From NCBI RefSeq assembly GCF_014189535.1, contig NZ_CP050308.1, positions 1,736,001 to 1,800,000 on the forward strand: a stretch of 64,000 nt of DNA. The letters are read 5' to 3'. The notes beneath the pieces are model-generated. The model was given only the letters and a program-made list of their open reading frames with translations, did no database searches and was not told the DNA's origin. The position numbers were made by a program, and so were the translations under genes. Source of the DNA: Rhizobium lusitanum. Lineage in GTDB: Bacteria > Pseudomonadota > Alphaproteobacteria > Rhizobiales > Rhizobiaceae. Shown here piece by piece: positions 11,184 to 41,783 of this stretch (position 1 is the first letter of the stretch; each line of letters begins with the position of its first letter).

Positions 11184-11355
11184 CTCACGCCGATCACGGC
11201 GATCGTCTCTCCATCGCAAGGAGTGGCGATCCCGCCGGGACGATGAGGGGAGCGGCATCCACAGCCCCTCGTCGCCTCGCCGAGCCCCCTCCGAAGGGAG
11301 AGGGCAAGATGGAAATATGCGCCCTATCATCTCTGCATATCCTTGGAGCACCCCA
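11184..11355. other. Intercistronic region with stacked hairpins
   Basis: A 172-bp gap between the binding-protein gene and its ATPase gene. It contains CGCCG-ATCA-CGGCG at 11188-11201 and GAGGGG/CCCCTC arms at 11245-11250 and 11265-11270. A CCCTCCGAAGGGAGAGGG-like stem lies at about 11285-11303. Such structures after a binding-protein gene often stabilise its message or attenuate read-through into the membrane genes. No gene is seen. Confidence 0.45.
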
Positions 11356-14115: not shown

Positions 14116-14127
14116 AGGGAGATTATT

Positions 14128-16777: not shown

Positions 16778-17509
16778 TCAGGCCGTCCAGCCGCCATCGA
16801 CGACGTGGATCTGGCCGGTGGTGAAGCCCGCCTCGTCGCCGGCGAGATAGGTTACCAGCGCGGCGATCTCCTCGGCATTCGCAATCCGGCCCATCGGTTG
16901 GCGGGCGATGAAATCGGCCATCGCTTTTTCGTAGTCGCCGGTGGCGCGCAGGCGATCATGCAGCGAAGGGCTGTCGACCGTGCCGGGGCAAATGGCATTG
17001 GCACGGATGCCCTTGGAGACGAAATCGGCGGCGATCGATTTGGTAAGCCCGATGACAGCGGCCTTGGAGGCGCAATAGGCGAAACGGTTCGGCACGCCCT
17101 TCACGCTGGAGGCGACCGACGCCATGTTGACGATTGAGCCCTTGCCCTTTTCCAGCATGCCCGGCAAGAAGGTGCGGCAGGTCGTGTACATCGCCTTGGC
17201 ATTGAGATTGAATGAGAAATCCCAGTCCTTTTCCTCGCAGTCGAGGATCGTGCCGGCATGCACGAAACCGGCGCAATTGAAGAGCACGTCGATCGGGCCG
17301 ATCTCACTAGCGTAAGCCTTGACCGCAGCACTATCGAGCACGTTCAGCACATGCGTGCTGGCGCCTTCCAGCGTCGAGAGCGTCTGCTCATTGATATCGG
17401 TGGCGTAGACATGCGCGCCGAGCGAAATGAAGCGCTCCGCCGTCGCCCGACCAATGCCCTGCCCCGCCGCCGTGATGACGACCTTCTTGCCTTCCAATCC
17501 GTGACCCAT
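16778..17509 (-). CDS. SDR family oxidoreductase (2-keto-3-deoxy-L-fuconate dehydrogenase/BDH2-like)
   Basis: A 243-aa classical short-chain dehydrogenase. The nucleotide motif is TAAGQGIGRA near residue 12; the NCAG motif, catalytic Ser region (NMASVASSVKG) and YCASK Tyr-Lys pair all follow. It resembles the DHRS6/BDH2 and KDF-dehydrogenase branch, which oxidises hydroxy acids including 2-keto-3-deoxy-L-fuconate. The ATG at 17509 starts the family N-terminus; one 7 codons upstream is possible. It is the last gene of the minus-strand catabolic operon, 107 bp after the binding-protein-like gene. In context it likely oxidises a 2-keto-3-deoxy sugar acid. Confidence 0.85.
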   Translation of the reverse strand: MGHGLEGKKVVITAAGQGIGRATAERFISLGAHVYATDINEQTLSTLEGASTHVLNVLDSAAVKAYASEIGPIDVLFNCAGFVHAGTILDCEEKDWDFSFNLNAKAMYTTCRTFLPGMLEKGKGSIVNMASVASSVKGVPNRFAYCASKAAVIGLTKSIAADFVSKGIRANAICPGTVDSPSLHDRLRATGDYEKAMADFIARQPMGRIANAEEIAALVTYLAGDEAGFTTGQIHVVDGGWTA

Positions 17510-17616
17510 AATCCTGATCCTTTCCTCCATGGCTTGATTCCGATCCGGAGAAGCCCAAGGCTGTCTCCGGATAAGAACAAGCGAAAACAGATAGCTAGAG
17601 CCGCTTCACTCTAGCC

Positions 17617-18741
17617 TCAAAACGATTGCGCGAAGCGCCGGTTGAGTTTGTCGATGAGGACTGTATGCCGCTCGGCGGTGCGCAGTCCATGGGTAATAAT
17701 CTCCGAAGCCTCACTTTGAAACGCCATATAGCCATCATGGCGCGGCCGGACATAAGCGCCTTCAAGGGTAGCCCGCGTATGACGGTAGAAATCGAGCGCC
17801 GACGCGTTGACCGCATCGCTGACCCAGGCATCGGCGTGACCCGGCTGGCCATTGCTTTCGGCGTAGAGGCCCGCCTGCACCGGCCCGCTGGCGATCCACC
17901 GCGCGAAGGCTTTGGCCTCCTCCGGCGCCGCCGTCCCAGCCGAAACGGCGATCCCCGTACCTCCAAGTGCGGAACCGTCGGACGATCTGCCATCGATCAC
18001 GGGCATATCGGCAAAGGCGATACGCGCCGAGCGGAATCCTGCGAAGGAATAGCTGACATAGCCGTAGATGAAAGGCGTAACATCATAACGGCTATCCGGC
18101 TCGCCCATGAGATCGAACACGGCGATCGGGTCCATGTCATAGCATTTGGGATCCATCCCTCTGAGGATCCGCGCCATCCAGTCGAGCACGACCTCGCCAT
18201 CCGCCCTGGCGATGAACTCCGGTCCCTCAATGCCGCAGGGCGTGCCGAGATGCGCCGCCAGCGTGAAGAAGGTCATCAGCACATGCGGCGAGCGCATCGG
18301 CAGGATCGCCCTGCCCTTCTCAGCCAGTGAAATGATCTCGGCGAGATCGGTGATCGGCCCACTCAGCCGATCCGGTCGGTAAGCCTGGACTTGCGTTGCC
18401 GCGTCGATCGGGAAGGCCCATTGCCGGCCCTGCCAATGGTAGCTCGGATAGGACCGGCCGACCGTGCCGGCGGCGATTGCCGCAAGCTCGTCCACATGCT
18501 CCGCATCATCAAGCGGCAGCAGGCAATTCTCGCGGGTGATCTGGCCGACATGCGGATGGTCGATGACGATCAAATCATACGCGGCGGCAAGCTCTTCGAC
18601 CGGGAAGGTCTCGAATTCCTGCAGCGAACGCTTCTCCCAGGCGATCTCGACACCGGTCTTTTCCAACCAAAGCTTCGAACAGGCCACCATCGGGTCGTAG
18701 CCGCGCGGATGCGACCAGGTCATTCCCTTGAGCTTCACCAT
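17617..18741 (-). CDS. Solute-binding-protein homologue without signal peptide
   Basis: A 374-aa protein with the fold pattern of family 1 extracellular solute-binding proteins: DLIVIDHPHVGQI, QWAFPIDAATQVQAYRPD, ALGGTGIAVSAGT and EEAKAFARWIASGPVQ. Its N-terminus ([20 protein letters not shown]) starts directly in the first beta strand, with no signal peptide or lipobox, so it should stay in the cytoplasm. The start codon shares one base with the stop of the MaoC gene (TGATG), so the pair is translationally coupled. A separate, exported binding protein with cognate permeases exists in the same operon. Its role may be a cytosolic ligand carrier, sensor or enzyme partner; none is established. 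Confidence 0.82.
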   Translation of the reverse strand: MVKLKGMTWSHPRGYDPMVACSKLWLEKTGVEIAWEKRSLQEFETFPVEELAAAYDLIVIDHPHVGQITRENCLLPLDDAEHVDELAAIAAGTVGRSYPSYHWQGRQWAFPIDAATQVQAYRPDRLSGPITDLAEIISLAEKGRAILPMRSPHVLMTFFTLAAHLGTPCGIEGPEFIARADGEVVLDWMARILRGMDPKCYDMDPIAVFDLMGEPDSRYDVTPFIYGYVSYSFAGFRSARIAFADMPVIDGRSSDGSALGGTGIAVSAGTAAPEEAKAFARWIASGPVQAGLYAESNGQPGHADAWVSDAVNASALDFYRHTRATLEGAYVRPRHDGYMAFQSEASEIITHGLRTAERHTVLIDKLNRRFAQSF

Positions 18742-19193
18742 CAGCCTGCCGCCCTGCGTTCGACGATCAGAATATGGTCGGCGGCGAGCACGACCTCGTC
18801 GCGCTGATTGAGCACCTCGCAGCGCTCGACAACGCGACCGGACACCGGGCGCTTCGGATCGTCTTCTTTCGCCGATATCGTCACCCGCGTGCGGATCGTG
18901 TCGCCGATATGCACCGGCCGGATGAACCGCAGCCGGTCGTAGCCATAGGAGAATGCGACAGGGTTGATCAGCGAGGCCGTCAGCCCGACGCCGATCGAGA
19001 AGATCATCGTGCCATGCGCGATACGCTGACCGCCGGGCAGGGTCTTGGCGAATTCCGCATCCATGTGATGCGGAAAGAAATCACCGGTATGGCCGGCATG
19101 GACGACGAAATCAGTCTCGGTGATCGTCCGCCCGGTCGTCGTCCTGACATGGCCGAGTTCATAGTCTTCGAAATAGATTGTCTGTTCGGCCAT
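18741..19193 (-). CDS. MaoC family dehydratase (first copy, motif intact)
   Basis: A 150-aa hot-dog-fold protein of the MaoC/(R)-enoyl-CoA hydratase family. The hydratase-2 motif is recognisable as GDFFPHHMD at residues 37-45, with Asp38 and His43 in the catalytic positions. The overhanging segment [20 protein letters not shown] is nearly shared with the second MaoC protein of this locus. Coupled by a 1-bp overlap to the signal-less binding-protein homologue and 3 bp from the Gfo/Idh gene. In a sugar-acid operon it may hydrate or dehydrate an acyl-CoA made by the CoA-transferase of the divergent arm. Confidence 0.87.
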
Positions 19194-19196
19194 GAC

Positions 19197-20270
19197 TTAC
19201 ACCTTCGGAAGTTCGGCAATCGGCGTCGCCGGAGCGGCACTCGACTGATAAGCGGCCTCGACCAGCGCCATGGTCTGCCAGGCATCCTCAACGGAGCCGA
19301 CCAGCACCTTGTCCTCGCCCGAGGCGAAGCGCTGCAGATTGGCCATGCGGTTGACGAAAGCGTCCGGAAACCAGGCGCCTTCGAGCTTCACCTCGACCCA
19401 CTCACTGCCACCATCAGGCTTAATCCATAGCTCGTCCGGCTCGCCGCGCGGATAGTCGAGATTGACGCCAAGCTTGACATAGGCCGCACCCTTGGTTCCC
19501 GAGATGCGGAACTCGCAAGCCTGGAACTTACGGCCAAAATCATGATCGTGATTGACAGAGAGCACGCAGCGCACCCTGTCGCCATAATCAAGGATCGCGG
19601 CCGTGCGCGTCTGCGCCATCTCATGGTTCGGATGGCCGATAGTCTTGGCATGCACGCCCTTGGGATTGCCGAGCAGGCCACGGATGAAATCGAGATAGTG
19701 GATCGAGTGCATCGCGATCTCGATGCGCGGTAGCCCCTTGAGGAACGGCCAGAGCCCCCACGGCGTCGCCAGCGCCAGCCAGGCGTCGAAGTCGATGACC
19801 TCGCCGAGATAGCCCTTCTCGACCGCATCATGAAGCGCCAGCATCATCGGCGCGAAGCGAAGCTGGAAATTCACCGCCGCTTTGATGTCCCGCTCGCGGC
19901 AGACCCTAAGTATCTCCGTCGCCCCGGTGAGATCGCCGCCCATCGGCTTCTGGATCAGAGCAAAGGAACCGCGCGGCAGCTTGGCAAGAATGGCGGCGTG
20001 GGCGGCGGGCGGCGTCGCCAGATCGAAGATCGCCCCTTCAACAGCCAGCACCTCGGCCTCGGTCGTGAAAACCCGGATGCCCCATTGATCCGCCAAGGCC
20101 TGCGCCTTTTCCGCATTCGGATCGTAAAGACCTACGACCGGAAAGCCGCCCTTCTTGTAGGCCGGCAAATGGGCATCGCCGACGATGCTGCCAGCGCCGA
20201 AGATCACGATGGGACGCGGGGCATTGGGCTTGGGCCACCATTGGCGGAGGGATTGGGGATCGAAAGTCAT
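19197..20270 (-). CDS. Gfo/Idh/MocA family oxidoreductase
   Basis: A 357-aa NAD(P)-dependent dehydrogenase. The Rossmann start is VIFGAGSIVGDAHLPAY, and the usual EKP motif appears as IQKPMGG (Gln for Glu) near residue 110, with the lysine kept. The C-terminal domain contains HSIHYLDFIRGLLG. The frame continues upstream through a repeat element, but the ATG at 20270 begins the conserved protein. It follows the mutarotase gene after a 121-bp palindromic spacer. A first-step sugar dehydrogenase giving a lactone is a likely role, in line with the lactonase-like gene in the other arm. Confidence 0.86.
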   Translation of the reverse strand: MTFDPQSLRQWWPKPNAPRPIVIFGAGSIVGDAHLPAYKKGGFPVVGLYDPNAEKAQALADQWGIRVFTTEAEVLAVEGAIFDLATPPAAHAAILAKLPRGSFALIQKPMGGDLTGATEILRVCRERDIKAAVNFQLRFAPMMLALHDAVEKGYLGEVIDFDAWLALATPWGLWPFLKGLPRIEIAMHSIHYLDFIRGLLGNPKGVHAKTIGHPNHEMAQTRTAAILDYGDRVRCVLSVNHDHDFGRKFQACEFRISGTKGAAYVKLGVNLDYPRGEPDELWIKPDGGSEWVEVKLEGAWFPDAFVNRMANLQRFASGEDKVLVGSVEDAWQTMALVEAAYQSSAAPATPIAELPKV

Positions 20271-20391
20271 TACACCCTCCCCTTGAGGGGGGAGGGTCGG
20301 ACCAAAGGTCCGGGGTGGGGTGATCCCTCCTGGCGCGACGAAGAGCGGCATGCGTGTCCCGAGCATCACCCCCACCCGCGCGTTCCGATGT
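20271..20391. repeat. Palindromic intergenic repeat inside the operon
   Basis: The spacer between the mutarotase and Gfo/Idh genes is built from nested inverted repeats. ACCCTCCCC-TTGA-GGGGGGAGGGT lies at about 20273-20296, CGGACC-AAA-GGTCCG follows at once, then a CACCCC-rich arm. This looks like a dispersed rhizobial intergenic mosaic element, similar in style to the element at 32413-32603. It may form a stable RNA hairpin between two co-transcribed genes. Confidence 0.6.
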
Positions 20392-20721
20392 CTAATCAAG
20401 ATGAAACACCTCCTCCATCATCGCCCACCACTCGCCCTCTTTGCGGGTCTCAAGCGGCTTCTGGCAGGGAATGCAAACCGACCACCATTCCTGGTTCTTC
20501 GGGCTCGCCGCCATCTTGGCCATATCGGCCTCGAAATCCGTACCGACATATTCCCAATAGCCGAAGAGCAGGTTTTCCGGCTCTTTCAGGAAGATCGAAT
20601 AGTTGGTGATGTTGCAGTCGGTGATCAGCGCCAGGATCTCGGGCCAGACGGCCGCATGCAGGCGCTTGTATTCCTCGATCTTCGACGGCTCCAGGCCGAT
20701 CACCATTCCCATGCGCTGCAT
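20392..20721 (-). CDS. L-rhamnose mutarotase family protein (RhaM-like)
   Basis: A 109-aa single-domain ferredoxin-like protein of the RhaM/YiiL family, which interconverts anomers of 6-deoxyhexoses. The family pattern is present: RMGMVIGLEPSKIEEYKRLH, then WPEILALITDCNITNYSIFL, LFGYWEYVGTDF and the C-terminal WWAMMEEVFHLD. The ATG at 20721 gives the normal length; the frame runs upstream into the enolase gene without a ribosome site. It lies 14 bp after the dehydratase gene. It suggests the imported substrate is a rhamnose- or fucose-like sugar. Confidence 0.9.
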   Translation of the reverse strand: MQRMGMVIGLEPSKIEEYKRLHAAVWPEILALITDCNITNYSIFLKEPENLLFGYWEYVGTDFEADMAKMAASPKNQEWWSVCIPCQKPLETRKEGEWWAMMEEVFHLD

Positions 20722-20735
20722 GATCGTGTCCTCCC

Positions 20736-21848
20736 TCAGCTGTGAATCTCTCTGGTGAACTCGCTGATCGAACGCGCCTTCACCGCTTCCCAATCCCAGG
20801 CAATGCCGATGCCCGGCTCAGAGGGTGCGAGTGCCTTGCCGTCGACGATCTCCATGCCCTTGGTGGTTAGATCGTCGAGCTGCGGGATATATTCGACATA
20901 TTTCCCGTTCGGCACGGCGCAGACGAGGCTGACATGCAGTTCCATCAGGAAATGCGGGCAGACGGGAATGTCGAAGGCTTCCGCCGCATGCGCCACTTTC
21001 AGCCAGGGCGTGATCCCGCCGATGCGGGCGACATCGACCTGGACGATCGAGCAGGCGCCTTTCTGCATGTACTCGCGGAAATGCCGGATCGAATAAATGG
21101 ATTCCCCAACCGCGATCGGCGTCGGCGTCGAGCGGGTCAGGCGAATATGGCCATCGAGATCGTCGGCCGGCAGCGGCTCCTCGATCCAGGCAAGATCGAG
21201 CTCCTTCAGCCGCGCAGCCCGGCGGATTGCCTCATCGACGGTAAAGCCCTGATTGCAGTCGGTCATGATCTCGAAGCTGGACCCGAGCGCCAGACGCATG
21301 GCCGACAGACGATCATAATCCTCCGAGCCATGCGGCTTGCCGATCTTCACCTTCGAGCCTGAGAAGCCCTTGGCCTTCGCCTGCAAGGCGTCCTCGACCA
21401 GGGCTTGCCTGTCGATATGCAGCCAGCCGCCCTCGGTCGTATAGAGCGGGCAACGATCCCTGGCACCGCCGGCGAGCTTCCAGAGCGGCAGGCTTTGCTT
21501 TTTGGCGCGCAGGTCCCAAAGGGCGGTATCGACAGCGGCGAGCGCCAGCGCCGTGATCGCACCGATGGTCGTCGCGTGGGTGGCAAACTCCATTTTGTGC
21601 CAGATCGCCTCGATGCAATCGGCATCCTCGCCGATCAACAGAGGTGCCAGATGATCCGACAGTAGCCGCATCACCGACGAACCGCCGGTGCCGATCGTAT
21701 AGCTGTAGCCGGTGCCGACTGCGCCATCTGAATCGGTGATGGTGACGATCGGCGTTTCCTGGCTGACGAAGCTCTGGATCGCATCCGTCCGCTTTACCTT
21801 CGGCGGTAGGTCGACCATGCGCAGTTCAATTTTCTCGATGCGGGCCAT
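20736..21848 (-). CDS. Enolase-superfamily sugar-acid dehydratase (mandelate racemase subgroup)
   Basis: A 370-aa two-domain enzyme predicted to dehydrate an aldonate or aldarate to a 2-keto-3-deoxy acid using Mg2+. The KxK motif is SKVKIG (K166, K168). Metal ligands are D197 (TDCNQ), E223 (WIEEP) and E249 (VGES). The second acid/base pair is D272 (VDVAR) with H299 (CPHFLMELH). The PHFxMExH block resembles L-talarate/galactarate dehydratases. It is about 60 residues shorter than typical L-fuconate dehydratase, so that exact assignment is not made. It follows the ABC ATPase gene by 16 bp. Confidence 0.88.
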   Translation of the reverse strand: MARIEKIELRMVDLPPKVKRTDAIQSFVSQETPIVTITDSDGAVGTGYSYTIGTGGSSVMRLLSDHLAPLLIGEDADCIEAIWHKMEFATHATTIGAITALALAAVDTALWDLRAKKQSLPLWKLAGGARDRCPLYTTEGGWLHIDRQALVEDALQAKAKGFSGSKVKIGKPHGSEDYDRLSAMRLALGSSFEIMTDCNQGFTVDEAIRRAARLKELDLAWIEEPLPADDLDGHIRLTRSTPTPIAVGESIYSIRHFREYMQKGACSIVQVDVARIGGITPWLKVAHAAEAFDIPVCPHFLMELHVSLVCAVPNGKYVEYIPQLDDLTTKGMEIVDGKALAPSEPGIGIAWDWEAVKARSISEFTREIHS

Positions 21849-21864
21849 ATCTCGCCTCCCTCGC

Positions 21865-22962
21865 TCAGAGCGCCAGGCTCTTGCCGGTTTCGATGGAGAA
21901 GAGATGTGCCTGGCTGAGATCGAAGCTCATCTTCAGCTGCTCGCCGCTTTTCAGGCCGCGTGGATTGAGCATGCGCGACACCCATTCGCGGCCGCCGAAT
22001 TCGACGAAAACAAGGGTTTCGTTGCCGAGCGGCTCGGTGATGGAGACGGGCAGCGTCACCTCATGCACCGCTGCCTCTGGACCGGAATGCAGGCCGTGGC
22101 CAGTGGGGAAAATATCGTCCGGGCGCAGGCCGAAGGCGACCTTCTCGCCATCCTTCACCCGGTCCGTAAACTGGCTCGGCAACGGCAGCCTGTCGCCATT
22201 CTCGAACACAAGCGCGCCGGCAGACACCAGTGCCTCCTCGATATTCATCGGCGGCGAGCCGATGAAGCCGGCGACAAAGCGGGTGGCCGGGCGCTTGAAC
22301 ACCTCGTCCGGCGTGCCGACCTGCTCGATATAGCCGTCACGCATGATGACGATGCGGTCGGCAAGCGTCATCGCTTCCACCTGGTCATGGGTGACGTAGA
22401 TCACCGTCGATTGCACCTTGGCATGCAGCTTCTTGATCTCGGTGCGCATCTGCGTGCGCAGCTTGGCGTCGAGGTTCGACAACGGCTCGTCGAAGAGGAA
22501 GACTTCGGGCTGGCGGACGATGGCGCGGCCCATGGCGACACGCTGGCGCTGGCCGCCGGAAAGCTGCGCCGGGCGGCGATCCATAAGCGTATCGAGGCCG
22601 AGGATGGCAGCCGCCTCGTTCACGCGCTGGTCGATCTCCGTCTGTGGCTGCTTGGCAATCTTCAGCGAGAAGCCCATGTTCTCGCGCACGGTCATGTGCG
22701 GATAAAGCGCATAGGACTGGAACACCATGGAGATATTGCGATCACGCGGCGGCAGGTCGTTGACGACGGTATCGCCGATCTCGATCGTGCCGTCGGAGAT
22801 GTTCTCGAGACCGGCGATCATGCGCAGCGTCGTCGACTTGCCGCAGCCTGACGGCCCGACCAGAGCGATAAACTCCTTGTCCTTGATATCAAGATCAATC
22901 CCGTGGACGATTTCCAGGGCACCGTAGCGCTTGACGAGTTTTTTGAGCGAGACCTGAGCCAT
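21865..22962 (-). CDS. Sugar ABC transporter ATP-binding protein (UgpC/MalK type)
   Basis: A 365-aa ATPase of a carbohydrate importer. Walker [11 protein letters not shown]-loop [10 protein letters not shown], signature [15 protein letters not shown], Walker [13 protein letters not shown] and switch region [11 protein letters not shown] are all present. A C-terminal TOBE/OB regulatory domain (about residues 240-365) is as in MalK/UgpC. The ATG at 22962 lies 4 bp after the permease stop and begins the standard N-terminus MAQVSLKKLVKRYG. It energises the two permeases encoded just upstream. Confidence 0.94.
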   Translation of the reverse strand: MAQVSLKKLVKRYGALEIVHGIDLDIKDKEFIALVGPSGCGKSTTLRMIAGLENISDGTIEIGDTVVNDLPPRDRNISMVFQSYALYPHMTVRENMGFSLKIAKQPQTEIDQRVNEAAAILGLDTLMDRRPAQLSGGQRQRVAMGRAIVRQPEVFLFDEPLSNLDAKLRTQMRTEIKKLHAKVQSTVIYVTHDQVEAMTLADRIVIMRDGYIEQVGTPDEVFKRPATRFVAGFIGSPPMNIEEALVSAGALVFENGDRLPLPSQFTDRVKDGEKVAFGLRPDDIFPTGHGLHSGPEAAVHEVTLPVSITEPLGNETLVFVEFGGREWVSRMLNPRGLKSGEQLKMSFDLSQAHLFSIETGKSLAL

Positions 22963-22966
22963 GGGA

Positions 22967-23833
22967 TCAACCTTTGACCGCACCGAATGTCAGACCTGAC
23001 ACCAGATGCTTCTGAATGATGAATGTAAGTGCGAGCGCCGGAACGATCATCACCACGGCGAGGGCACACATGCCGCGCCAGTCGATGGTGAATTCGGCCG
23101 TGTAGTCGAGCAGGCCGACCGGCAGCGTCTTGGAATTGACCGAGCGCGTCAGCTGCGAGGCCAGCGCATATTCGTTCCAGCAGGTGAGGAAGGCGAAGAT
23201 GCCGGCGGACGCGATGCCGGGGCCGGCGAGCGGAAACTCCACCTGCCAGAAGGCCTGCCAGCGCGTGCAGCCGTCGATCTGCGCGGCTTCCGCGAGATCC
23301 TTCGGCACCTGCCGGAAGAAGCCGTCGATCAGCCAGATGGTGAAGGGCACGTTCAGCGCGACATAGGTAAGGATCAGGCCGAAATGCGTGTCGATGATGC
23401 CGAGCCGCGCATAGACCATGAACAGCGGCAACGAGAGGGCGACACCCGGCACGGAGCGCGTCAGCATCAGGCCGAGGAACACGGTCGACTTGCCGGTGAA
23501 GCGGAAGCGGGCGAAGGCATAGCCGCCGGACATGCCGATGATGAGCGCGATGGCGGTCGAGGTGATGGAGATCACCAGCGAATTGCGGAAATAATCCCAG
23601 ACAGGAATGCCACCCTGCCCCGCGCCGCTGAACATGGCGCGATAGGCTTCGAGCGAAAGTTCCTGCGGGATCCAGACCGGCGGTTTCGCCATGATCTCGA
23701 CCGTCGGGCGCAGAGAACTCAGGATGATCCAGAAGCCCGGCAGGCAGATGATGAGCATCGCGATGAAAAGGCCAAAGAGATAGGCGACTTTTCCGATGCG
23801 GCGGCGCAGGCGTTGTTCGGTGTTGCGATCCAT
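22967..23833 (-). CDS. Sugar ABC transporter permease (MalG type)
   Basis: A 288-aa inner-membrane permease with six predicted helices. The coupling loop EAAQIDGCTRWQAFWQVEFP, about 90 residues from the C-terminus, is the MalG-type motif. The C-terminus [12 protein letters not shown] is typical of carbohydrate permeases of this class. The ATG at 23833 lies 2 bp after the preceding permease stop; a GTG three codons upstream is an alternative. It pairs with the MalF-type permease. Confidence 0.92.
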   Translation of the reverse strand: MDRNTEQRLRRRIGKVAYLFGLFIAMLIICLPGFWIILSSLRPTVEIMAKPPVWIPQELSLEAYRAMFSGAGQGGIPVWDYFRNSLVISITSTAIALIIGMSGGYAFARFRFTGKSTVFLGLMLTRSVPGVALSLPLFMVYARLGIIDTHFGLILTYVALNVPFTIWLIDGFFRQVPKDLAEAAQIDGCTRWQAFWQVEFPLAGPGIASAGIFAFLTCWNEYALASQLTRSVNSKTLPVGLLDYTAEFTIDWRGMCALAVVMIVPALALTFIIQKHLVSGLTFGAVKG

Positions 23834-23835
23834 GA

Positions 23836-24729
23836 TTACCACTCCGCTCCGATCTGGGTGCGGGCAAGCGCCAGCTTACGGAAGAAATACACTGTGAAGG
23901 CGATCGACAGGAGGATCGAGACATAGGCCATAGCGTTGGCGAGACCCATTTGCGCGTCGGCATAGGCCGTGCGCCCGACCAGCGTCCAGATAAGCTCCGT
24001 GCGCCGCGCCGGGCCGCCATCGGTCATGATCTTGACGATGTCATAGGCGCGGGCGACGTCGAGCGAACGGATGGTCATGGCGATGAAGGCAAAGGGCATC
24101 AGGAACGGCCAGGTAACGTAACGGAAGGTCTGCCAGCCCGTACAGCCATCGACTTTCGCGGCCTCCACCGGCTCCTGCGGCATGGCGAACAGACCGGCGA
24201 GGATGAGGATGGCGAAGACGGAGGTGGACGACCAGACTTCCGCGACGATGATCGAAAACAGCGCCAGATTGCCGTCGATCAGCCACGGAATGGCATCATT
24301 GGTGATACCTAGCGACTGCAAGGCATTGTTGATGACGCCGACATTGTCGTTGAACATGAACTTGAACTGGAAGCCGACGAGCACCGGCGAAAACATCATC
24401 GGGAACATCATCAGCGTGCGCAGGATGCGCTTGCCGTGGGTCGCCTTGTTGACCAGGAGCGCCAGGCCGAGGCCGAGCAGCATTTCCAGATTGAGCGCGA
24501 TCGTCAGCAGCACGACGGTCCGCACGAACGCCGCCAGGAACACCGGATCGGTCAGAATGCGGATGTAGTTGCGCAGACCGATGAAGGTGAAGAGCGTCGA
24601 CGGCCGCGTCAGGCGAAACGGCGTGAAGCTGGAATAGAAGGACAGAAGCAGCGGAAACAGCACCACCGCCACAAGCACGATGATCGCTGGAAGAAGCAGC
24701 AGGACCGGTGGGGATATTTTCTTGAACAT
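23836..24729 (-). CDS. Sugar ABC transporter permease (MalF type)
   Basis: A 297-aa permease with six predicted transmembrane helices and the coupling loop EAAKVDGCTGWQTFRYVTWP. The open frame extends upstream, but only the ATG at 24729 begins a plausible cytoplasmic N-terminus (MFKKISPPVLLLLPA) right before the first helix. It follows the binding-protein gene after a 181-bp spacer with a strong hairpin, so its expression is probably lower than that of the binding protein. Confidence 0.91.
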   Translation of the reverse strand: MFKKISPPVLLLLPAIIVLVAVVLFPLLLSFYSSFTPFRLTRPSTLFTFIGLRNYIRILTDPVFLAAFVRTVVLLTIALNLEMLLGLGLALLVNKATHGKRILRTLMMFPMMFSPVLVGFQFKFMFNDNVGVINNALQSLGITNDAIPWLIDGNLALFSIIVAEVWSSTSVFAILILAGLFAMPQEPVEAAKVDGCTGWQTFRYVTWPFLMPFAFIAMTIRSLDVARAYDIVKIMTDGGPARRTELIWTLVGRTAYADAQMGLANAMAYVSILLSIAFTVYFFRKLALARTQIGAEW

Positions 24730-24870
24730 GGTTTGCACCTGTCGGCATTCCTCAGCAGCGTGGCCCTGACTGCGTGAAATGCGATTACGTGGGGCCGAGA
24801 GGCCGGATTGACGTCCGGCCGGACAGACCAGCCCCAAAAAGGCGCAGGTCATAGGCATTTTTCAAAGACA

Positions 24871-24896
24871 TCCCGCACCCGTTTCCGGGCGCGGGA
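24871..24896 (-). terminator. Intercistronic hairpin after binding-protein gene
   Basis: An 11-bp stem with one G-U pair (TCCCGCACCCG / CGGGCGCGGGA) and a TTTC loop lies 14 bp after the binding-protein stop, before the permeases. On the minus strand it is followed by TGTCTTTG, a weak T tract. It may be a partial terminator or a 3'-end stabiliser that raises binding-protein levels over membrane subunits. Confidence 0.6.
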
Positions 24897-24910
24897 CCTG
24901 ATTGCATCGA

Positions 24911-26227
24911 TCAGAGCGAACCGGCATCCTTCAGGACGTCGGTCGCCTTTTGCGCGGCCGTGTCGAGCGCTTCCTTGGAGGTCTTGTCGCCGAGGATGGC
25001 GGCCTGAAGCTCAGGATAGACGACGTTGGAAATCTCGATCCACTGCGGCGTGCGCGGAACCGGGAAGGCGTATTTCATCGATTCCTGGAAGGTGCTCAGC
25101 ACTTCCTTCTTGTAGGGATCGGACGCAGCCTGCTGGATGTCCCATTCCCAGACCGCCTTGCGGGTCGGCAGCGTGCCGTTGGCGGCTTCGAGCTTCTGCG
25201 AATCGTCATTGGTCAGGAACCAGACGAGCGAGGCAGCCGCGTCCTTGTGAGCGCAAGCCTCGGTCACCGAGAAGCCGTGATGGCCGGACCAGCCGGTATG
25301 CTTGCCGGACGAACCGACGGGCTGCACGACGACGCCGACATTGCCGGCAACCTTCGAGGATTTCGGATCATTGAAATAGGTCGCCCAGCCCGGCCAGTCG
25401 AGATCGAGAGCGACGGTGCCCGAGGCAAAACCGGCGCCGAGATCGTCCCAGAGATAGTTGGTCGTGCCGACCGGAACGGCCTTCGCCTTGTACATGTTCA
25501 CGAACCAGTCGAGCGCGCGCACGCCGGCTTCGGAATTGAAGGCCGGCTTGCCGTCCTTGTCGAGATATTCGCCACCTTCCGCAACCAGCATTTCAAAGAA
25601 GCGACCGTTGATTGCCTCTTCCTTGCCGGGGAATTGCGTGCCGAAGAAATTCGGCGGATTGGCAAAGAAAATCGCCTGATCCGACACTTCCTTCCAGGTC
25701 TTCGGCGGCGAGAGATCGTAGCCGTACTTGGCCTTGAACGCCGTCTTCTTCGCCTCGTCGCTATAGAGGCTCTTCTGGTAGTAGAGCGCCGAAACGTCGA
25801 ATTGCGCGCGCGGCAGCATGATCAGCCGTCCGTCGATGGTGGATGCCCCAATCGTCGAATCGACGAACTGGGCGATCTCCTCCTTCGGCAGCAGTTTGCC
25901 GAGATCGGTATAAAAGTCGGGATACTGCGGCGCAAAGGACGAGTGGTTCGAGCCGACACACCAGGAGATATCGCCCGACGCCATGTCCGACTTGATTTCC
26001 TTGTCGAGCTCGAAATGGTTCTTCTTGGAGAGGATATTGACCTTGGCGCCGGTCTCCTTCTCCCACTCGGTAATGCGCGCATAGAGCGGCTCATATTGCT
26101 GGCCGCCGATCAGCTTGGCATCGATCGTCACGCCCGGAAACTTGCCGGGCAGGTCGGCGGCAAAAGCCGCGGTGCTCGCGAGCAATGCCAATATGCCGGC
26201 GGCAAGACCGGCCTTCAAATTCCTCAT
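24911..26227 (-). CDS. Sugar ABC transporter substrate-binding protein
   Basis: A 438-aa periplasmic binding protein of carbohydrate family 1. The signal peptide MRNLKAGLAAGILALLASTA ends near AAFAADLPG (cleavage about residue 24). The mature protein shows TEWEKETGAKVNILSKKNHF, LPRAQFDVSALYYQKSLY and VPRTPQWIEISNVVYPELQ. The ATG at 26227 sits 7 nt after GGGAGG; an ATG two codons earlier is too close to that site. It is first in the ten-gene minus operon and diverges from the IclR gene. A 6-deoxyhexose or sugar acid is a likely ligand from context. Confidence 0.9.
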   Translation of the reverse strand: MRNLKAGLAAGILALLASTAAFAADLPGKFPGVTIDAKLIGGQQYEPLYARITEWEKETGAKVNILSKKNHFELDKEIKSDMASGDISWCVGSNHSSFAPQYPDFYTDLGKLLPKEEIAQFVDSTIGASTIDGRLIMLPRAQFDVSALYYQKSLYSDEAKKTAFKAKYGYDLSPPKTWKEVSDQAIFFANPPNFFGTQFPGKEEAINGRFFEMLVAEGGEYLDKDGKPAFNSEAGVRALDWFVNMYKAKAVPVGTTNYLWDDLGAGFASGTVALDLDWPGWATYFNDPKSSKVAGNVGVVVQPVGSSGKHTGWSGHHGFSVTEACAHKDAAASLVWFLTNDDSQKLEAANGTLPTRKAVWEWDIQQAASDPYKKEVLSTFQESMKYAFPVPRTPQWIEISNVVYPELQAAILGDKTSKEALDTAAQKATDVLKDAGSL

Positions 26228-26361
26228 CGTCATTCCTCCCTAAAGAACCGGACTCCCCGTCCGATCGCCCTTACGACCCAAATATGGATCATTGATTTAT
26301 ATGTAAACATCATATTCATTGGCCGTCAAGCCGGGATCAACGGCGCTTGCAAATCGCAATC

Positions 26362-26384
26362 ATTCACATATGAATGATGATTCA
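26362..26384. promoter_or_regulatory. Alternating inverted half-sites, probable IclR-type operator
   Basis: Three half-sites ATTCA (26362-26366), TGAAT (26371-26375) and ATTCA (26380-26384) alternate in orientation with an exact 9-bp period. Another ATTCA lies at 26314-26318. They sit in the divergent region between the transporter operon and the IclR gene, just upstream of its proposed GTG start. This is a plausible site for autoregulation and control of both arms. Confidence 0.55.
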
Positions 26385-26407
26385 TGTTCATTGATGAGAG
26401 GCCCGCC

Positions 26408-27202
26408 GTGACCATTGAAGACGAGAGCGATCGATATCGCGCCCCGGCGCTGGACAAGGGCCTCGATATTCTGGAGCTGCTGGCGCGCATCGATGGCGGG
26501 CTGACACAGGCGGAAATCGCCAAGGCGCTCGGCAAGAGCCCGAACGAATTCTACCGCATGCTCGACCGGCTGGTGCGGCGCGGCTACGTGCAGCGGCAGG
26601 ACGGCGACCGCTTCTATCTGACGCTCAAGCTCTTCGGCCTGGCGCATTACCACGCGCCGGTGCGCCGGCTCGTTTCCTTCGCCACGCCGCTGATGCGCGA
26701 ATTCTCCAACCGCGCCGAACAGGCCTGCCATCTGGCGATTTTCGATCGCGGCTCCGTCGTGGTCATCGCCCAGCAGGATTCGCCGACCTATTGGGGCATC
26801 TCGATCCGCGTCGGCGCCCAGATTAACCTGTTCAACACCGGCTCCGGCCATATCCTGCTGGCCTTCCGCGACGAAAAGCAGCGCCAGATGATGATCAACG
26901 AGCAGCGCCGCCAGCAGGACGAGGAGAACGACCAACCACCGGCCGATCTCGACGACAGGCTGCGGGTACTCCGCGACAAGGGATTCGAGACCATGGACAG
27001 CTTGCAGACCAACGGCGTGCGCAATATCTCCGCGCCGATCCTGGCCATGGACGGCAATGCGCTGGCCGCACTCACCTGCCCCTATATCCAACCGGTCAAT
27101 CCCAACGCGCCAACCTATGATCAGGTCATCGACTATGTGCGGGAAGCGGCGAAGCAGATTTCCGAAACCGTGGTCGGCACAGTGGATACCAGCGAGCTAT
27201 AA
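26408..27202 (+). CDS. IclR family transcriptional regulator
   Basis: A 264-aa regulator with an N-terminal winged HTH (ALDKGLDILELLARIDGGLT, then LTQAEIAKALGKSPNEFYRM) and a C-terminal IclR effector domain from about residue 85. The GTG at 26408 has GAGAGG 6 nt upstream. An ATG at 26384 lacks a ribosome site and would overlap the putative operator, so GTG is preferred. It diverges from the ABC transporter/dehydratase operon and is followed 63 bp later by the lactonase-MaoC-CoA-transferase genes. It is therefore the likely local regulator, with a pathway sugar acid as a possible effector. Confidence 0.9.
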   Translation: MTIEDESDRYRAPALDKGLDILELLARIDGGLTQAEIAKALGKSPNEFYRMLDRLVRRGYVQRQDGDRFYLTLKLFGLAHYHAPVRRLVSFATPLMREFSNRAEQACHLAIFDRGSVVVIAQQDSPTYWGISIRVGAQINLFNTGSGHILLAFRDEKQRQMMINEQRRQQDEENDQPPADLDDRLRVLRDKGFETMDSLQTNGVRNISAPILAMDGNALAALTCPYIQPVNPNAPTYDQVIDYVREAAKQISETVVGTVDTSEL

Positions 27203-27265
27203 TTTTTATTTGAATAAACTATTCTTCTGTGAGTATATGTTGGCCAGCATGATGGGAGGATCGCC

Positions 27266-28102
27266 ATGCTTTTCGATAGCCACCTGCACATCGTCGACCG
27301 CGAGAAACTTGGATATCCCTGGCTGGAAGGGGCCGGCGCGCTAAACCGCGACAACCTTTACGAGGACTATGCCCGCGAAGCGCATCGCTGCGGGATTACC
27401 GACACACTGCATATGGAAGTCGATGTCGCAGAGAGCGATATCGAGCGGGAAACGGACTATGTCAAAGGCTTGAGTCAAAAGCCCGGCAGCCTGCTCCGCG
27501 GCGCCATCGCCGCCTGCCGCCCCGAAAGCAAGGATTTTCCCGCCTATCTGGAGCGCGTGCTCGCCGACCCCTTCGTCAAGGGGTTCCGTCGCGTGCTGCA
27601 TGTCGTGCCGGATGACGTTTCCGAAGGTGCGCTCTTCCGCGAAAACCTGAAACGGATTGCCGGCACCCGCCTCACCTTCGATCTCTGCGTGCTGCCGCAT
27701 CAGATTTCCAAGGCAATCGCGCTCGCCGACCTCAATCCCGACGTTCAGTTCATTCTCGACCATTGCGGCGTGCCCGCGATCAAGAAGCAGCTCAGCGAGG
27801 TCTGGTCCTCGGGAATAACCGCGATTGCCAGGCGCCCGAATGTCGTCGTCAAGATTTCCGGCATCGTCGCCTATGCCGATCCAGACAGCTGGACCGTCGA
27901 CAGGCTGCAGCCCTTCGTCGAGCATTCGATCGCTAGCTTCGGCTGGGATCGCGTGATCTGGGGCAGCGACTGGCCGGTCTGCACGCTGGGTGGCGGCCTC
28001 TCCACCTGGGTCGCCGCGACGCATGCGCTGATGCAAGGAACAAGCGCCGACGAACGCGCCCGGCTCTATCAGCGCAACGCCAAGCGTCTCTGGTCTCTCT
28101 GA
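27266..28102 (+). CDS. Amidohydrolase family lactonase (L-fuconolactonase/rhamnonolactonase-like)
   Basis: A 278-aa TIM-barrel metal-dependent hydrolase of the COG3618 type. The HLH metal motif is at residues 6-8 (DSHLHIVD), a DHCGVP strand at 165-170, and the conserved GSDWP with the catalytic Asp at 235. Characterised members open sugar 1,4- or 1,5-lactones such as L-fuconolactone. A GGGAGG ribosome site precedes the ATG. In this locus it fits between a Gfo/Idh sugar dehydrogenase and the enolase-type dehydratase. The actual sugar is not determined. Confidence 0.88.
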
Positions 28103-28133
28103 GCGCCCGGCAACATCACCGAAAGCCCATGCC

Positions 28134-28679
28134 ATGACTGCCACCGTCGGCATTTCCAGCACCCATCCGAAGACCATGCCGGCCGGCCATGCCGATATCC
28201 CCGTCTGGAACTCGGAAAACTGGTTCTATGAGGATTTTGAGATCGGCCACAAGATCCGCTCGCTGCGCCGCACGATCTCCGAAGGTGAATCCCAGCAGTT
28301 CAACGCCCTGGTGCTCGACATGCACCCCTATGTCAGCGACCAGATTTTTGCCGAGACGGAAGGCCTGTTCGGCAAGCGACTGGTGGCCGGCGCTTTCGTC
28401 TTCTCCGCCGGCCTCGGGCTGGTTGCCACCAACTGTATCAACGCCTTTTCCTATGGCTATGACAGGCTGCGCTTCATCAAGCCCACCTTCATCGGCGACA
28501 CGATCTACACCATCCGTACCAACCTGGATAAGCAGCCGAAATACCGGGATCTCGGGCTGATCCGCTCGTCCTATGAGGTCTTCAAGGGCGAAGGCGAGCT
28601 GGTTCTTTACTGCGAGCATATCCAAACCGTGCGCTACAAGGACGGCCGTCCCGCCGACGCTCCTGAATTGAAGGGCTGA
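28134..28679 (+). CDS. MaoC family protein (second copy, catalytic His replaced)
   Basis: A 181-aa MaoC-like hot-dog protein with a 25-residue N-terminal extension compared with the copy at 18741-19193. The two share the block [11 protein letters not shown][KR]-P-x(2)-IGDTI. The canonical hydratase motif GDxNPxHxD reads LDMHPYVSD here (residues 61-69): the Asp is kept (D62), but the catalytic His position is Val67. It may therefore be a non-catalytic partner, bind an acyl-CoA, or use another residue such as H64. It lies 1 bp from the CoA-transferase gene, so the two are co-translated. Confidence 0.85.
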
Positions 28680-28680
28680 G

Positions 28681-29847
28681 ATGACCGAGGAACAGAATGA
28701 GGGTTTGCTTGCCGGCATAGTGGTGCTCGATATGAGCCAGTTCCTGGCGGGGCCGATGGCAGCACTTCGGCTCGGCGATCTCGGCGCGCGGGTGATCAAG
28801 GTGGAGCGCCCCGACGGCGGCGATCTTTGTCGCAGGCTCTATCTCAGTGATACCGAGATCGGCGGCGACTCGACGCTGTTCCACGCCATCAATCGCGGCA
28901 AGGAAAGCTTCGCGATCAACATGAAGGACGAGGGCGATCTAGGCGACCTCAGGGTGCTGATCGAAAAGGCCGACGTCATCATCCAGAATTTTCGCCCCGG
29001 GGTCATCGAGCGCCTGGGCCTCGACTATGCCTCAGTCACCGCGATCAATCCGCGCATCGTCTATGGCAGCATCACCGGCTACGGCCCGGACAATGAATGG
29101 CGGCATTTTCCAGGACAAGACCTGCTCGCCCAGGCCCGCTCCGGCGCCATGTGGCTGAATGGCGAGGCCGATGACGGCCCGGTGCCCTTCGGCCTCGCGG
29201 TCGCCGACATGCTGGCCGGCAATCTCATCGTCCAGGGCATTCTCGCCGGCCTCGTGCGGCGCAGCGTCACCGGTCACGGCGTCCATGTCGAAACCAGCCT
29301 GCTTGAAGCGATGATCGATTTTCAGTTCGAGGTGCTGACGACCCATCTCAACGACGGTGGCCGCCTGCCGAAAAAGTCCTCGGTACGCAATGCCCACGCC
29401 TATCTCTCGGCCCCCTACGGCGTCTATCACTGCGCCGACGGCTGGCTGGCGCTCGCCATGACGCCGCTACCAAAACTAGCGCCGCTGCTCGACCTGCCCG
29501 CACTTGCCGATTACACGCCGGACGAAGCCTTTTCCCTGCGCGACGAGATCAAGAGCCTGATTGCCATCCGCCTGCATCAGAAGACGGTGGCAGAATGGCT
29601 CGCCATCCTCGAGCCCGCCGATATCTGGACGACGGAAGTGCTGGATTGGCCGCAGCTGCTCGAAACTGCCGCCTTCCGCCAGCTCGACATGCTGCAAACC
29701 GTGACCCGCGACGACGGCATTTCCGTTCGCACGACGGCAAGCCCGATCCGCGTCAATGGCCAGCGCCATAAAAACGATCTCGCCGCCCCGACGATCGGCA
29801 GCGGCTCAGAGAAGATCCGGGCGGAATTCGCAATCAGCGCCGACTAG
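28681..29847 (+). CDS. CaiB/BaiF CoA-transferase family protein
   Basis: A 388-aa class III CoA-transferase, predicted to move CoA between carboxylic acids. The N-terminal block GIVVLDMSQFLAGPMAALRL, then DLGARVIKVERPDGGD, and the catalytic Asp in FPGQDLLAQARSG (D147) are conserved. The C-terminal swapped domain is present, and the length is normal. It ends the plus-strand arm of the IclR locus. Finding it with sugar dehydratase, lactonase and MaoC genes suggests the sugar-acid product is handled as a CoA thioester. That is inference. Confidence 0.9.
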   Translation: MTEEQNEGLLAGIVVLDMSQFLAGPMAALRLGDLGARVIKVERPDGGDLCRRLYLSDTEIGGDSTLFHAINRGKESFAINMKDEGDLGDLRVLIEKADVIIQNFRPGVIERLGLDYASVTAINPRIVYGSITGYGPDNEWRHFPGQDLLAQARSGAMWLNGEADDGPVPFGLAVADMLAGNLIVQGILAGLVRRSVTGHGVHVETSLLEAMIDFQFEVLTTHLNDGGRLPKKSSVRNAHAYLSAPYGVYHCADGWLALAMTPLPKLAPLLDLPALADYTPDEAFSLRDEIKSLIAIRLHQKTVAEWLAILEPADIWTTEVLDWPQLLETAAFRQLDMLQTVTRDDGISVRTTASPIRVNGQRHKNDLAAPTIGSGSEKIRAEFAISAD

Positions 29848-29913: not shown

Positions 29914-30879
29914 TTATGCAGCGGCGAGCTGCAGTTCCTTGCTGACCATGGCGCGAAGCGTGCCGAGGTCCTTGGCGAATGCGCGGATGCCTTCGGCGAG
30001 CTTTTCGGTCGCCATTGCATCTTCGTTCATCTGCCAACGATAGGTCTTTTCATCGACGATGATCTTGGCGACGGAGGTCTTGTTTTCCGGCGAGAGCTTG
30101 CGCTCCAGCTTGCCTTCGTCCTTGGCGAGCTCGTCGAGCAGGTTCGGGCTGATCGTCAGGCGATCGCAACCGGCCAGAGCTTCGACTTCGGCAGCACTGC
30201 GGAAGGAGGCGCCCATGACGATCGTCTTGATGTCGTTGGCCTTGTAGTAATTGTAGATTTCGCGAACGGACAGAACGCCCGGATCTTCTTCCGGGGTGTA
30301 GTCCTTGCCGGTCGACTTCTTGTACCAGTCAAGGATACGGCCGACGAAGGGCGAGATCAGAAAGACCTTGGCGTCGGCGCAGGCGACGGCCTGAGCCTTG
30401 CTGAAGAGCAGTGTCAGGTTGCAGTCGATGCCTTCCTTCTGCAGCACTTCCGCGGCACGGATGCCTTCCCAGGTGGAAGCGAGCTTGATCAGGATACGGT
30501 CGCGCTCAATGCCGCGCTCCTTGTAGGCGGCGATGATGGCGCGGGCCTTGGCGAGCGATGCTTCGGTATCGAAGGACAGGTCGGCGTCAACTTCGGTCGA
30601 AACACGGCCGGGAACGAGGCCGGACAGCGCGGAGCCAACGGAGATCGCCAGACGGTCGGCAACCGCAGCGGCAACTGCATCCGGCGTGCCACCCTGCTTC
30701 TTGCCCCAGGCGACGCCTTCCTTGATCGCGTCGGCGAACATCGGCGTGCCCAGCGCCTTCAGGACGATGGTGGGATTGGTCGTGCAGTCGACCGGCTTTA
30801 GACGGGCAACCGCCTCGATGTCACCGGTATCGGCCACGACCGTCGTCATAGCGCGAAGTTGGTCAAGCTTGGATGTCAT
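29914..30879 (-). CDS. tal: Transaldolase
   Basis: A 321-aa cytoplasmic enzyme of the non-oxidative pentose phosphate pathway, transferring a dihydroxyacetone unit through a Schiff-base lysine. The TalB-type motifs are clear: [12 protein letters not shown] near residue 32, the active-site lysine in [30 protein letters not shown] and [12 protein letters not shown]. It is a single gene with its own terminator. Its 5' flank is a 503-bp region shared with the divergent SorC-type regulator, but a regulatory link is not shown. Confidence 0.97.
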
Positions 30880-31382
30880 GATACCTATCCTTGTTGAATT
30901 GAGCCCATTGGGTTGGGAAATTTTGACCGGCGATTCCGTCCGGTTCGATGGACGACACGAAGACTGCGAGCGGATCGCGCCGCACTGTCACCCATGCCTC
31001 GGTAACGGCGGAAACAGCGCGATGGTTCCATTTCCGGTGAACGGTCAGAGCCGCGAAGAAACAACTTTCCGGGAACAGCCTTTTCGCCGGATGAGCGCGC
31101 CCTATATGGCTCTCTGCCCGGCCAAGCATTTCCACGGCGCAGCACTTGCACATTGCCCTCCTCGATTGGACAAAGACCGTATTCCTTAGGGCGACTATCA
31201 TCAATCCCGCCGGGAAAAGTCAAGCGACATTTGTGCATTTCAATTGACATAAGTTTCAAGCCATAGAATATCTCCATGCGAAGAGCCGATCTCGCCGCCC
31301 CTGCCATGTGCTACTGCGGCGACCCTGGTTGCCTGCGTTCAATCAAGCAGAATGGGCGGGCGAAAATCTTGCTGGAGGACCT
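30880..31382. promoter_or_regulatory. Divergent intergenic region between tal and SorC-type regulator
   Basis: 503 bp with no convincing gene; short frames across it lack ribosome sites and domain similarity. A TTGACA hexamer lies at 31244-31249 and an AATATC hexamer 17 bp further, giving a weak sigma-70-like promoter for the plus strand. The neighbouring stretch GACATTTGTGCATTTCAATT is AT-rich. Other operator-like structure was not recognised. Confidence 0.3.
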
Positions 31383-38383: not shown

Positions 38384-38403
38384 CAAGAAGGAGCCCCGTC
38401 CAC

Positions 38404-39078: not shown

Positions 39079-39177
39079 CGCAGATCCAACCCGAACCCTG
39101 TTTCGGCCACGTCTCTTGCGAGCGCCGGCCTTGCCATAAAAATCGGCCGGGACTTGAGCGCCCCGGCCGATAGATAA

Positions 39178-40784: not shown

Positions 40785-41783
<999 letters not shown>

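Follow-up and report, generated by a model that had tools for sequence, protein, structure and literature searches.

We describe here a divergent locus in a 64,000-nucleotide stretch of Rhizobium lusitanum DNA (the window), at positions 16778-29847, where sugar genes are arranged in two arms around an IclR-family regulator gene together with four genes of another kind: a signal-less solute-binding protein (SBPc), a CaiB/BaiF family III coenzyme A (CoA)-transferase (CaiB) and two MaoC-family hydratases (MaoC1 and MaoC2). We tentatively propose that the window carries a non-phosphorylating regulon of the L-fucose type under IclR, to which a CoA cassette has been added, and that a sugar acid passes through SBPc and CaiB and is dehydrated as a thioester. 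With more reserve, we suggest that SBPc, CaiB and a MaoC or crotonase hydratase may form an undescribed CoA-dependent sugar-acid dehydration system, present in three bacterial phyla and in a related haloarchaeal arrangement, in which a cytoplasmic binding protein delivers the acids. To our knowledge, known non-phosphorylating sugar pathways use enolase-, IlvD- or UxaA-type dehydratases and not thioester chemistry, and no description of the cassette was recognised in the open-licence literature, judged by title and the start of the abstract.

The two arms around IclR, and every gene named there in an earlier reading of the bare sequence (the original prediction), were recovered by Pfam and NCBIfam scans. 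In order of transcription, the minus arm holds ten genes, beginning with a periplasmic binding protein and ending with a short-chain dehydrogenase/reductase (SDR), and the plus arm four, namely IclR, an amidohydrolase (AmHy), MaoC2 and CaiB. Intergenic gaps inside either arm are at most 175 bp and three pairs of genes overlap; MaoC1 and SBPc overlap by 1 base, and MaoC2 and CaiB are spaced by 1 base. This grouping is real and not due to chance, since the minus arm and the IclR-AmHy pair stand in the same order in 25 loci (L021-L045; 24 titled Rhizobium and one 'Rhizobiales bacterium'), with MaoC2 within the fetched stretch in 24 of them. These loci were found through SBPc (78-92% identity), whose presence there is by construction, and the position of CaiB is beyond the fetched flank, so that the conserved order covers the genes short of CaiB. 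For the table of gene neighbourhoods in relatives, gene content was determined by tblastn.

We also assembled a sample of 64 SBPc loci, starting from 55 SBPc places, from which the one in the window genome itself and four incomplete hits in G134 and G183 were removed, and adding 14 others. In 56 of the 64 loci, a CaiB gene is no further than 9.5 kb from SBPc, and in 41 it is adjacent on the same strand; MaoC is present in 33, crotonase in 23, one or the other in 55, and CaiB together with a hydratase in 53. The chance expectation of a CaiB near SBPc is about 2% (35 genomes, linked CaiBs counted too): the window genome has 4 CaiB genes, and 35 of the SBPc genomes have, among the matches listed, 1-12, about 4.5 each. 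The recurrence of CoA-transferase, MaoC and binding-protein genes with sugar genes, on which the original prediction was to be judged, is borne out by the 25 Rhizobium-group loci, as far as their flanks reach, and by this sample. A midpoint-rooted tree of 109 CaiB sequences, in which 20 unlinked CaiBs were hand-picked among the matches listed, placed the CaiBs of SBPc loci in almost one clade that is nearly exclusive to them; the unlinked L232 and L233 fall inside it and L081_0, from an SBPc locus, outside, and two further own-genome sequences (L193, L194), the longest frames of a stretch, were not relied on.

The window CaiB combines the CoA_transf_3 domain with a putative catalytic Asp176, which we take to be equivalent to the Asp of formyl-CoA transferase and which is Asp in 85/85 homologues from SBPc loci. 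MaoC1 keeps the Asp-His pair of GDxxPxH, presumably the MaoC catalytic motif, in 83 of 84 homologues, whereas in MaoC2 the His is replaced in 83/83 homologues and the Asp retained, so that the pair is incomplete. The loss of His from MaoC2 alone suggests that MaoC2 is a non-catalytic partner forming a heteromer with MaoC1. A structure near this hydratase exists, PDB 4ffu, a close MaoC1 homologue labelled only 'oxidase'.

These data bear on whether CaiB, MaoC and SBPc might belong to an unrelated acid catabolism and share the regulator by chance, an explanation that we consider improbable. It would fit the position of CaiB and MaoC2 in the opposite arm of the window and that of the CaiB-SBPc pair of Sinorhizobium meliloti, about 10 kb from the amidohydrolase arm with unrelated genes in between; but MaoC1 and SBPc sit inside the sugar operon, between the Gfo/Idh dehydrogenase (Gfo) and the SDR, and the SBPc-CaiB pairing recurs across gene orders and phyla.

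Several lines of evidence identify the sugar pathway. Firstly, the RhaM-family protein scores 167 bits against the L-fucose mutarotase 7byu, as a FucM protein would, compared with 40 bits for YiiL and 37 bits for the highest-scoring entry that carries the name L-rhamnose mutarotase. Secondly, the SDR matches 8xwk, 8y4j and 8y11 with 318 bits, as a FucF protein would; these are the L-2-keto-3-deoxyfuconate (KDF) 4-dehydrogenase (L-KDFDH) of Herbaspirillum huttiense, according to the text available from PMC11199699. Thirdly, the pSymB operon of S. meliloti (L101) is syntenic with the window, with identities of 91% for the enolase-superfamily protein (ENO), 90% for RhaM, 80% for Gfo, 91% for MaoC1 and 63% for the SDR, and there an FAH-family hydrolase and an annotated L-fuconate dehydratase come after the sugar genes. 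Because the mutarotase and the SDR are nearest to solved L-fucose enzymes, and because the synteny extends to an operon with FAH and L-fuconate dehydratase, assignment of the sugar arm to the non-phosphorylating L-fucose (6-deoxyhexose) type, which the original prediction had put forward, is supported at the level of sequence. The other enzymes are less close to characterised proteins. The PDB relatives of the Gfo/Idh protein are weak (best 53 bits) and no close characterised relative was found among them; AmHy, which we take to be of COG3618 type, matches Amidohydro_2 and falls below the cut-off of the L-fuconolactonase model NF052480; and the nearest PDB entry to ENO is 3,6-anhydro-L-galactonate cycloisomerase (251 bits), L-fuconate dehydratase reaching 119 bits. 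Several loci hold ENO together with a dehydratase of the fuconate or UxaA type. As for uptake, the transporter of the S. meliloti locus has presumably been assigned to L-fucose by fitness data; a search of the open-licence literature found no paper carrying the gene numbers of the S. meliloti fucose locus. The published L-fucose binding protein of S. meliloti is the CUT2 protein SMc02774 (PMC3454389, in its available text), so that the locus transporter would be a second system in this species.

The original prediction went further and held that CoA-transferase and MaoC stand in for the aldolase or FAH-type hydrolase that ends such pathways, the keto acid being handled as a CoA thioester. Its starting point stands: domain scans revealed no FAH in the locus, and none of the FAH matches in the genome lies inside the window. 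However, the S. meliloti FAH used as query on the window's genome gave four matches, three of 34-36% identity and one of 80% (C5:2509558), whose best model is NF053535 (2,4-didehydro-3-deoxy-L-rhamnonate hydrolase; 416 bits, cut-off 500). In addition, an FAH-family hydrolase shares its stretch with CaiB, SBPc and MaoC in seven loci (S. meliloti L101, Qingshengfaniella L115, Ponticoccus L123, Pararhizobium L237, L138, L182 and L184). FAH is therefore not absent wherever the CoA genes are present, either in these loci or in the same genome, and this coexistence contradicts the replacement, which we rejected and now regard as very improbable.

The converse arrangement, sugar genes without CoA genes, came from a search with ENO, which gave 37 places in 36 of 297 genomes; 20 stretches new beyond the earlier loci were fetched. 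One of these, L205 (G237:C80), has AmHy, IclR, ENO, RhaM, Gfo, SDR, FucC and FAH, at 68-90% identity to the nearest reference protein, and shows no match to MaoC, CaiB, SBPc or the CUT1 transporter, another type of ATP-binding cassette (ABC) transporter being nearby; another, L213, also carries MaoC1. Homologous loci routinely lacking the CoA genes had been named beforehand as what would refute the original prediction: L205 is such a locus, but some or all of the CoA genes are near 9 of the 11 ENO places of at least 79% identity. Since L205 has these sugar genes and matches none of the cassette genes, the cassette is, judged by gene content, dispensable for the core sugar path. Together with the coexistence of FAH and the 9 of 11 ENO places, this indicates that the CoA genes are an add-on to the sugar pathway and not its terminal step.

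No signal peptide or lipobox was seen by eye at the N-terminus of the window SBPc, and 71 of the 113 homologues measured have no start codon at least 20 codons ahead of the conserved motif. By its sequence, SBPc is a distinct family, although its predicted fold does not differ from that of CUT1 binding proteins in general. No ABC permease is annotated in two Bacteroidota loci that hold SBPc and CaiB, according to gene tables that are possibly incomplete and cover the stretches seen, which argues that SBPc is probably not a transport part; a role as second transporter component was rejected on this ground and on that of the signal peptide not being seen. A second type of signal-less solute-binding protein, scoring at most 26.3 bits with the SBPc profile, occurs in Bacteroidota, Sphingomonadales and a haloarchaeon, at loci that carry the cassette or are related to those that do (L235:16139-17371, L240:10121-11248, L242:9992-11179, L241:9992-11227).

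It is also conceivable, though unlikely in our view, that SBPc is itself an enzyme derived from a binding protein, its thioester substrate being made ready or processed further by CaiB and MaoC. Polar residues invariant in 17 aligned SBPc sequences (among them R13, D56, D61, D113 and R332) would suit an active site, and a solute-binding protein that evolved into a dehydratase provides a precedent (PMC7683729, from the portion available); yet the predicted fold is ordinary, and the invariant residues could equally grip one constant group of the ligand.

The L-fuconate dehydratase (FucC) homologue of the window's genome, at C5:1421130, is 88% identical to the annotated S. meliloti gene and follows about 75 bp behind a second CaiB (CaiB2; C5:1422479-1423582) that belongs to the same clade as the CaiBs of SBPc loci; the whole stretch is L114:9128-11628 (C5:1421130-1423627). 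The operator pattern ATTYATATGTRAA, built on the two sites of the window alone and searched across the 6.94 Mb genome with one mismatch allowed, gave 9 matches, of which two are the window's own sites (26295-26307 and 26363-26375) and another, at C5:1423705, is about 80 bp upstream of the CaiB2 frame. The reversed pattern, used as a control, gave 2 matches, and by simple proportion the chance that one of 7 random sites falls within 300 bp upstream of one named gene is about 3 in 10,000. An earlier pattern with 4 matches, in which one position had been widened for the CaiB2 site, was not relied on. A TCATT...AATGA palindrome covers the second site in 23 of the 25 loci L021-L045 and, by that expression, is found in 0 of 45 other intergenic regions, among which the boxes TTCATATA and GCATATGAA, related to the palindrome, do recur. 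Upstream of the genomic FAH gene there is a loose operator-like sequence that is not one of the 9 matches. IclR may regulate the locus. The FucG (FAH) and FucC homologues in the genome, CaiB2 beside FucC and the operator match upstream of it all speak for an L-fucose-type regulon with an added CoA cassette. A GATCCA palindrome with up to 3 mismatches was also noted in 27 of 71 intergenic regions, mostly of the Rhizobium group, and was not used.

Sugar loci in which SBPc, a CaiB of the clade and MaoC or crotonase are found together occur in Pseudomonadota, Actinomycetota and Bacteroidota. Two architectures were seen repeatedly. Type A is that of the window; type B combines CaiB, SBPc, crotonase and an FAH-family protein of about 385-400 residues with a neighbouring aldose epimerase and SDR (Streptomyces L116, Pseudosulfitobacter L117 and Variovorax L120; Sinorhizobium L121 resembles these but lacks the FAH gene). 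No dehydratase of the enolase superfamily or IlvD type was found within 12 kb of the cassette in 6 of 8 records, UxaA-type enzymes not having been searched for; the exceptions are Sinorhizobium L121 and Halostagnicola L241, and in Persicobacter an annotated altronate dehydratase is about 26 kb from the cassette. It is chiefly these six records that hint at a possible dehydration by the hydratase. A further count, 32 of 53 loci without dehydratase, was not used, ENO being just outside the fetched stretch in several. A tally of transporter types was likewise set aside, since SBPc had served to select the loci.

Some of these loci also carry an alpha-L-fucosidase gene. On a plasmid of Persicobacter psychrovividus, SusCD-type genes, an alpha-L-fucosidase, a sulfatase and a RhaT symporter precede, in this order, SBPc, CaiB, CaiB, a second signal-less binding protein, Gfo, alcohol dehydrogenase, SDR, MaoC, IclR and a lactonase; the annotation of the 84 kb seen, out of 144 kb, lists no ABC permease. 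In Rufibacter, SBPc is accompanied by two CoA transferases, another signal-less binding protein, Gfo, MaoC and RhaT, and the 21 kb seen contain neither an annotated ABC permease nor a fucosidase. The Croceibacterium cassette is accompanied by an alpha-L-fucosidase, beta-galactosidases, a GDSL esterase, a beta-L-arabinofuranosidase-domain protein and an ABC set. In the haloarchaeon Halostagnicola (L241), an alpha-L-fucosidase, a mandelate-racemase-family protein, Gfo, RhaM, an amidohydrolase, MaoC and an annotated CoA transferase occur with an AMP-binding enzyme, a signal-less binding protein of the second type (26.3 bits with the SBPc profile) and a nearby ABC set. The gene of the AMP-binding enzyme (L241:8323-9951) directly adjoins that of the signal-less binding protein.

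These neighbours, and L205, bring in the main rival explanation, which we judge possible though on the unlikely side: the cassette would serve a modified or acidic relative of fucose, for instance O-methylated fucose or one of the branched acidic deoxysugars in pectin, taken up by the CUT1 transporter, CoA activation and MaoC stripping or rearranging the extra group before the fucose enzymes take over. The joint lack of cassette and CUT1 transporter in L205, which has the sugar enzymes and a different ABC type, would fit this, and so would the alpha-L-fucosidase genes of Persicobacter, Halostagnicola and Croceibacterium and the sulfatase, GDSL esterase, beta-galactosidase and beta-L-arabinofuranosidase-domain genes of cassette loci. 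However, a single cassette-free locus is a small sample, and crotonase-type cassettes sit with other sugar modules, so that one special sugar would not suffice for all.

Returning to the L-fucose-type regulon with thioester dehydration, the mechanism we propose is built on the family identities, conservation, co-occurrence, signal-peptide absence, catalytic residues and common operator-like sequence seen in the genomes; the substrate, the contact between SBPc and CaiB, the thioester intermediate and the dehydration step are deduced from them. The sugar would be taken up by the ABC transporter, mutarotated by RhaM/FucM and oxidised at C1 by Gfo/Idh, and the lactone would be opened by the amidohydrolase. 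A 2-keto-3-deoxy acid would then be formed, oxidised at C4 by the SDR (FucF) and cleaved by the FAH hydrolase (FucG) encoded elsewhere on the replicon. In the added conserved cassette of SBPc, CaiB, MaoC1 and MaoC2, SBPc would hold the sugar acid, either an aldonate or the acid of a modified deoxyhexose, in the cytoplasm and present it to CaiB, which would attach CoA to the carboxylate. Water would then be taken off C2-C3 of the thioester by MaoC1, which probably forms a heteromer with MaoC2; the product would be 2-keto-3-deoxyacyl-CoA, from which the free acid would eventually arise. Crotonase would replace MaoC in other loci.

Several points weigh against this mechanism. Plain L-fuconate would hardly need a second dehydration route, since type A loci, that of the window among them, hold ENO and often a fuconate or UxaA-type dehydratase, and the count of 6 in 8 records ignores UxaA-type enzymes. 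MaoC1 could act on another thioester, and the CoA donor and the acyl-CoA product are hypothetical. The sugar gene set is found without the cassette in L205, and MaoC2 was not found in the S. meliloti stretch seen. At the E-values used, SBPc is present in only 41 of 297 and 18 of 398 genomes sampled. Finally, 8 of the 64 SBPc loci have no CaiB inside 9.5 kb; among the matches listed, CaiB is at about 10-12 kb in three of them (L127, L141 and L157), and Microvirga L118 has no CaiB among its annotated genes.

The features of the locus are collected in Table 1. SBPp gave no match in the Pfam scan, and for the permease at 22967-23842 the scan covered only a wrong frame (22818-24020); both were named through the annotation of orthologous loci.

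Table 1. Features of the divergent locus, in window coordinates.
Feature	Position	Strand	Evidence
SDR, FucF-like (L-2-keto-3-deoxyfuconate 4-dehydrogenase type)	16778..17530	-	best PDB 8xwk/8y4j/8y11, 318 bits
SBPc, signal-less, CUT1/maltose-binding-protein-like, predicted cytoplasmic	17617..18741	-	
MaoC1 hydratase, catalytic D...H pair kept	18741..19193	-	MaoC_dehydratas 77.5 bits; PDB 4ffu 306 bits
Gfo/Idh/MocA sugar dehydrogenase, proposed FucA role	19197..20270	-	GFO_IDH_MocA 43 bits
RhaM family, L-fucose mutarotase type (FucM)	20392..20721	-	7byu 167 bits
ENO, enolase-superfamily dehydratase or isomerase	20736..21848	-	MR_MLE_C 220 bits
ABC transporter ATPase, CUT1 type	21865..22983	-	ABC_tran 118 bits, OB_MalK, TOBE_2
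ABC permease	22967..23842	-	S. meliloti gene 87% identical, annotated carbohydrate ABC transporter permease
ABC permease	23836..24729	-	BPD_transp_1 51 bits, on longer frame 23836-24858
SBPp, periplasmic solute-binding protein with signal peptide	24911..26233	-	N-terminus MTMRNLKAGLAAGILALLASTAAFAADLPG; orthologues annotated sugar ABC solute-binding protein
Divergent control region, two operator-like sites 26295-26307, 26363-26375	26234..26383	.	pattern matches
IclR-family regulator	26384..27202	+	IclR_C 74 bits, HTH_IclR 52 bits
AmHy amidohydrolase, L-fucono-1,5-lactonase-like (FucB)	27266..28102	+	Amidohydro_2 177 bits; NF052480 93 bits, cut-off 400
MaoC2, degenerate MaoC, catalytic His replaced by Val in the window	28134..28679	+	MaoC_dehydratas 41 bits
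CaiB, family III CoA-transferase, SBPc-partner clade	28681..29847	+	CoA_transf_3 316 bits

Beside CaiB, at 29914-32372, lie a transaldolase-family gene (29914-30879), which adjoins the locus, the aldolase of the known pathway being something else, and a regulator with a Sugar-bind domain. On the other side, a separate ABC transporter with an aldehyde dehydrogenase (9789-15555, plus strand) also adjoins the locus. Further away, an FGGY-kinase C-terminal domain, a mannitol dehydrogenase domain, an ABC ATPase and a binding protein are encoded at 36801-44970, possibly as a polyol set, and SpoVR and PrkA genes at 51781-56564.

If the proposal is true, sugar-acid catabolism gains a CoA-thioester branch, and a family annotated as extracellular solute-binding proteins consists of cytoplasmic metabolic proteins. 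The repeated presence of CoA-transferases and MaoC proteins among the sugar genes of rhizobia, marine bacteria and a haloarchaeon would also be accounted for, and the cassette genes offer a directly testable set in a laboratory rhizobium.

Among known systems, the nearest is non-phosphorylating L-fucose route 3 of H. huttiense, which runs FucM-FucA-FucB-FucC-FucF-FucG in the available text of PMC11199699. The mutarotase and the KDF 4-dehydrogenase of the window are close kin of those enzymes, a lactonase-like amidohydrolase is found here too, and the window's genome holds FucC- and FucG-type genes. The window differs from the route in that text in having a Gfo/Idh protein as proposed first dehydrogenase and an additional enolase-superfamily protein, in the placing of FucC and FucG outside the locus, and in the added cassette of CaiB, two MaoC proteins and SBPc.

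Compared with the binding proteins of CUT1 sugar ABC transporters (trehalose/maltose-binding 1eu8 and SmoF), SBPc is 15-19% identical, signal-less and paired with CaiB, also in Bacteroidota loci without annotated ABC permeases. Cyclohexadienyl dehydratase likewise employs a binding-protein fold outside transport, but it has an arginine-binding ancestor and another chemistry in the portion of PMC7683729 available, whereas catalysis by SBPc is hypothetical. The window CaiB resembles the CaiB/BaiF family III in its CoA_transf_3 domain and putative catalytic Asp, its nearest named models being the succinate-glutarate and mesaconate CoA-transferases; all 7 NCBIfam models that it matches are nevertheless far under their cut-offs. 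Mesaconyl-CoA hydratase belongs to the MaoC family, and we know of no sugar genes or binding protein in the methylaspartate cycle set. In that cycle, as far as the available text of PMC5592240 goes, a CoA-transferase and mesaconyl-CoA hydratase act on mesaconate, and CoA activation is thus followed by a hydratase, as we propose for the cassette.

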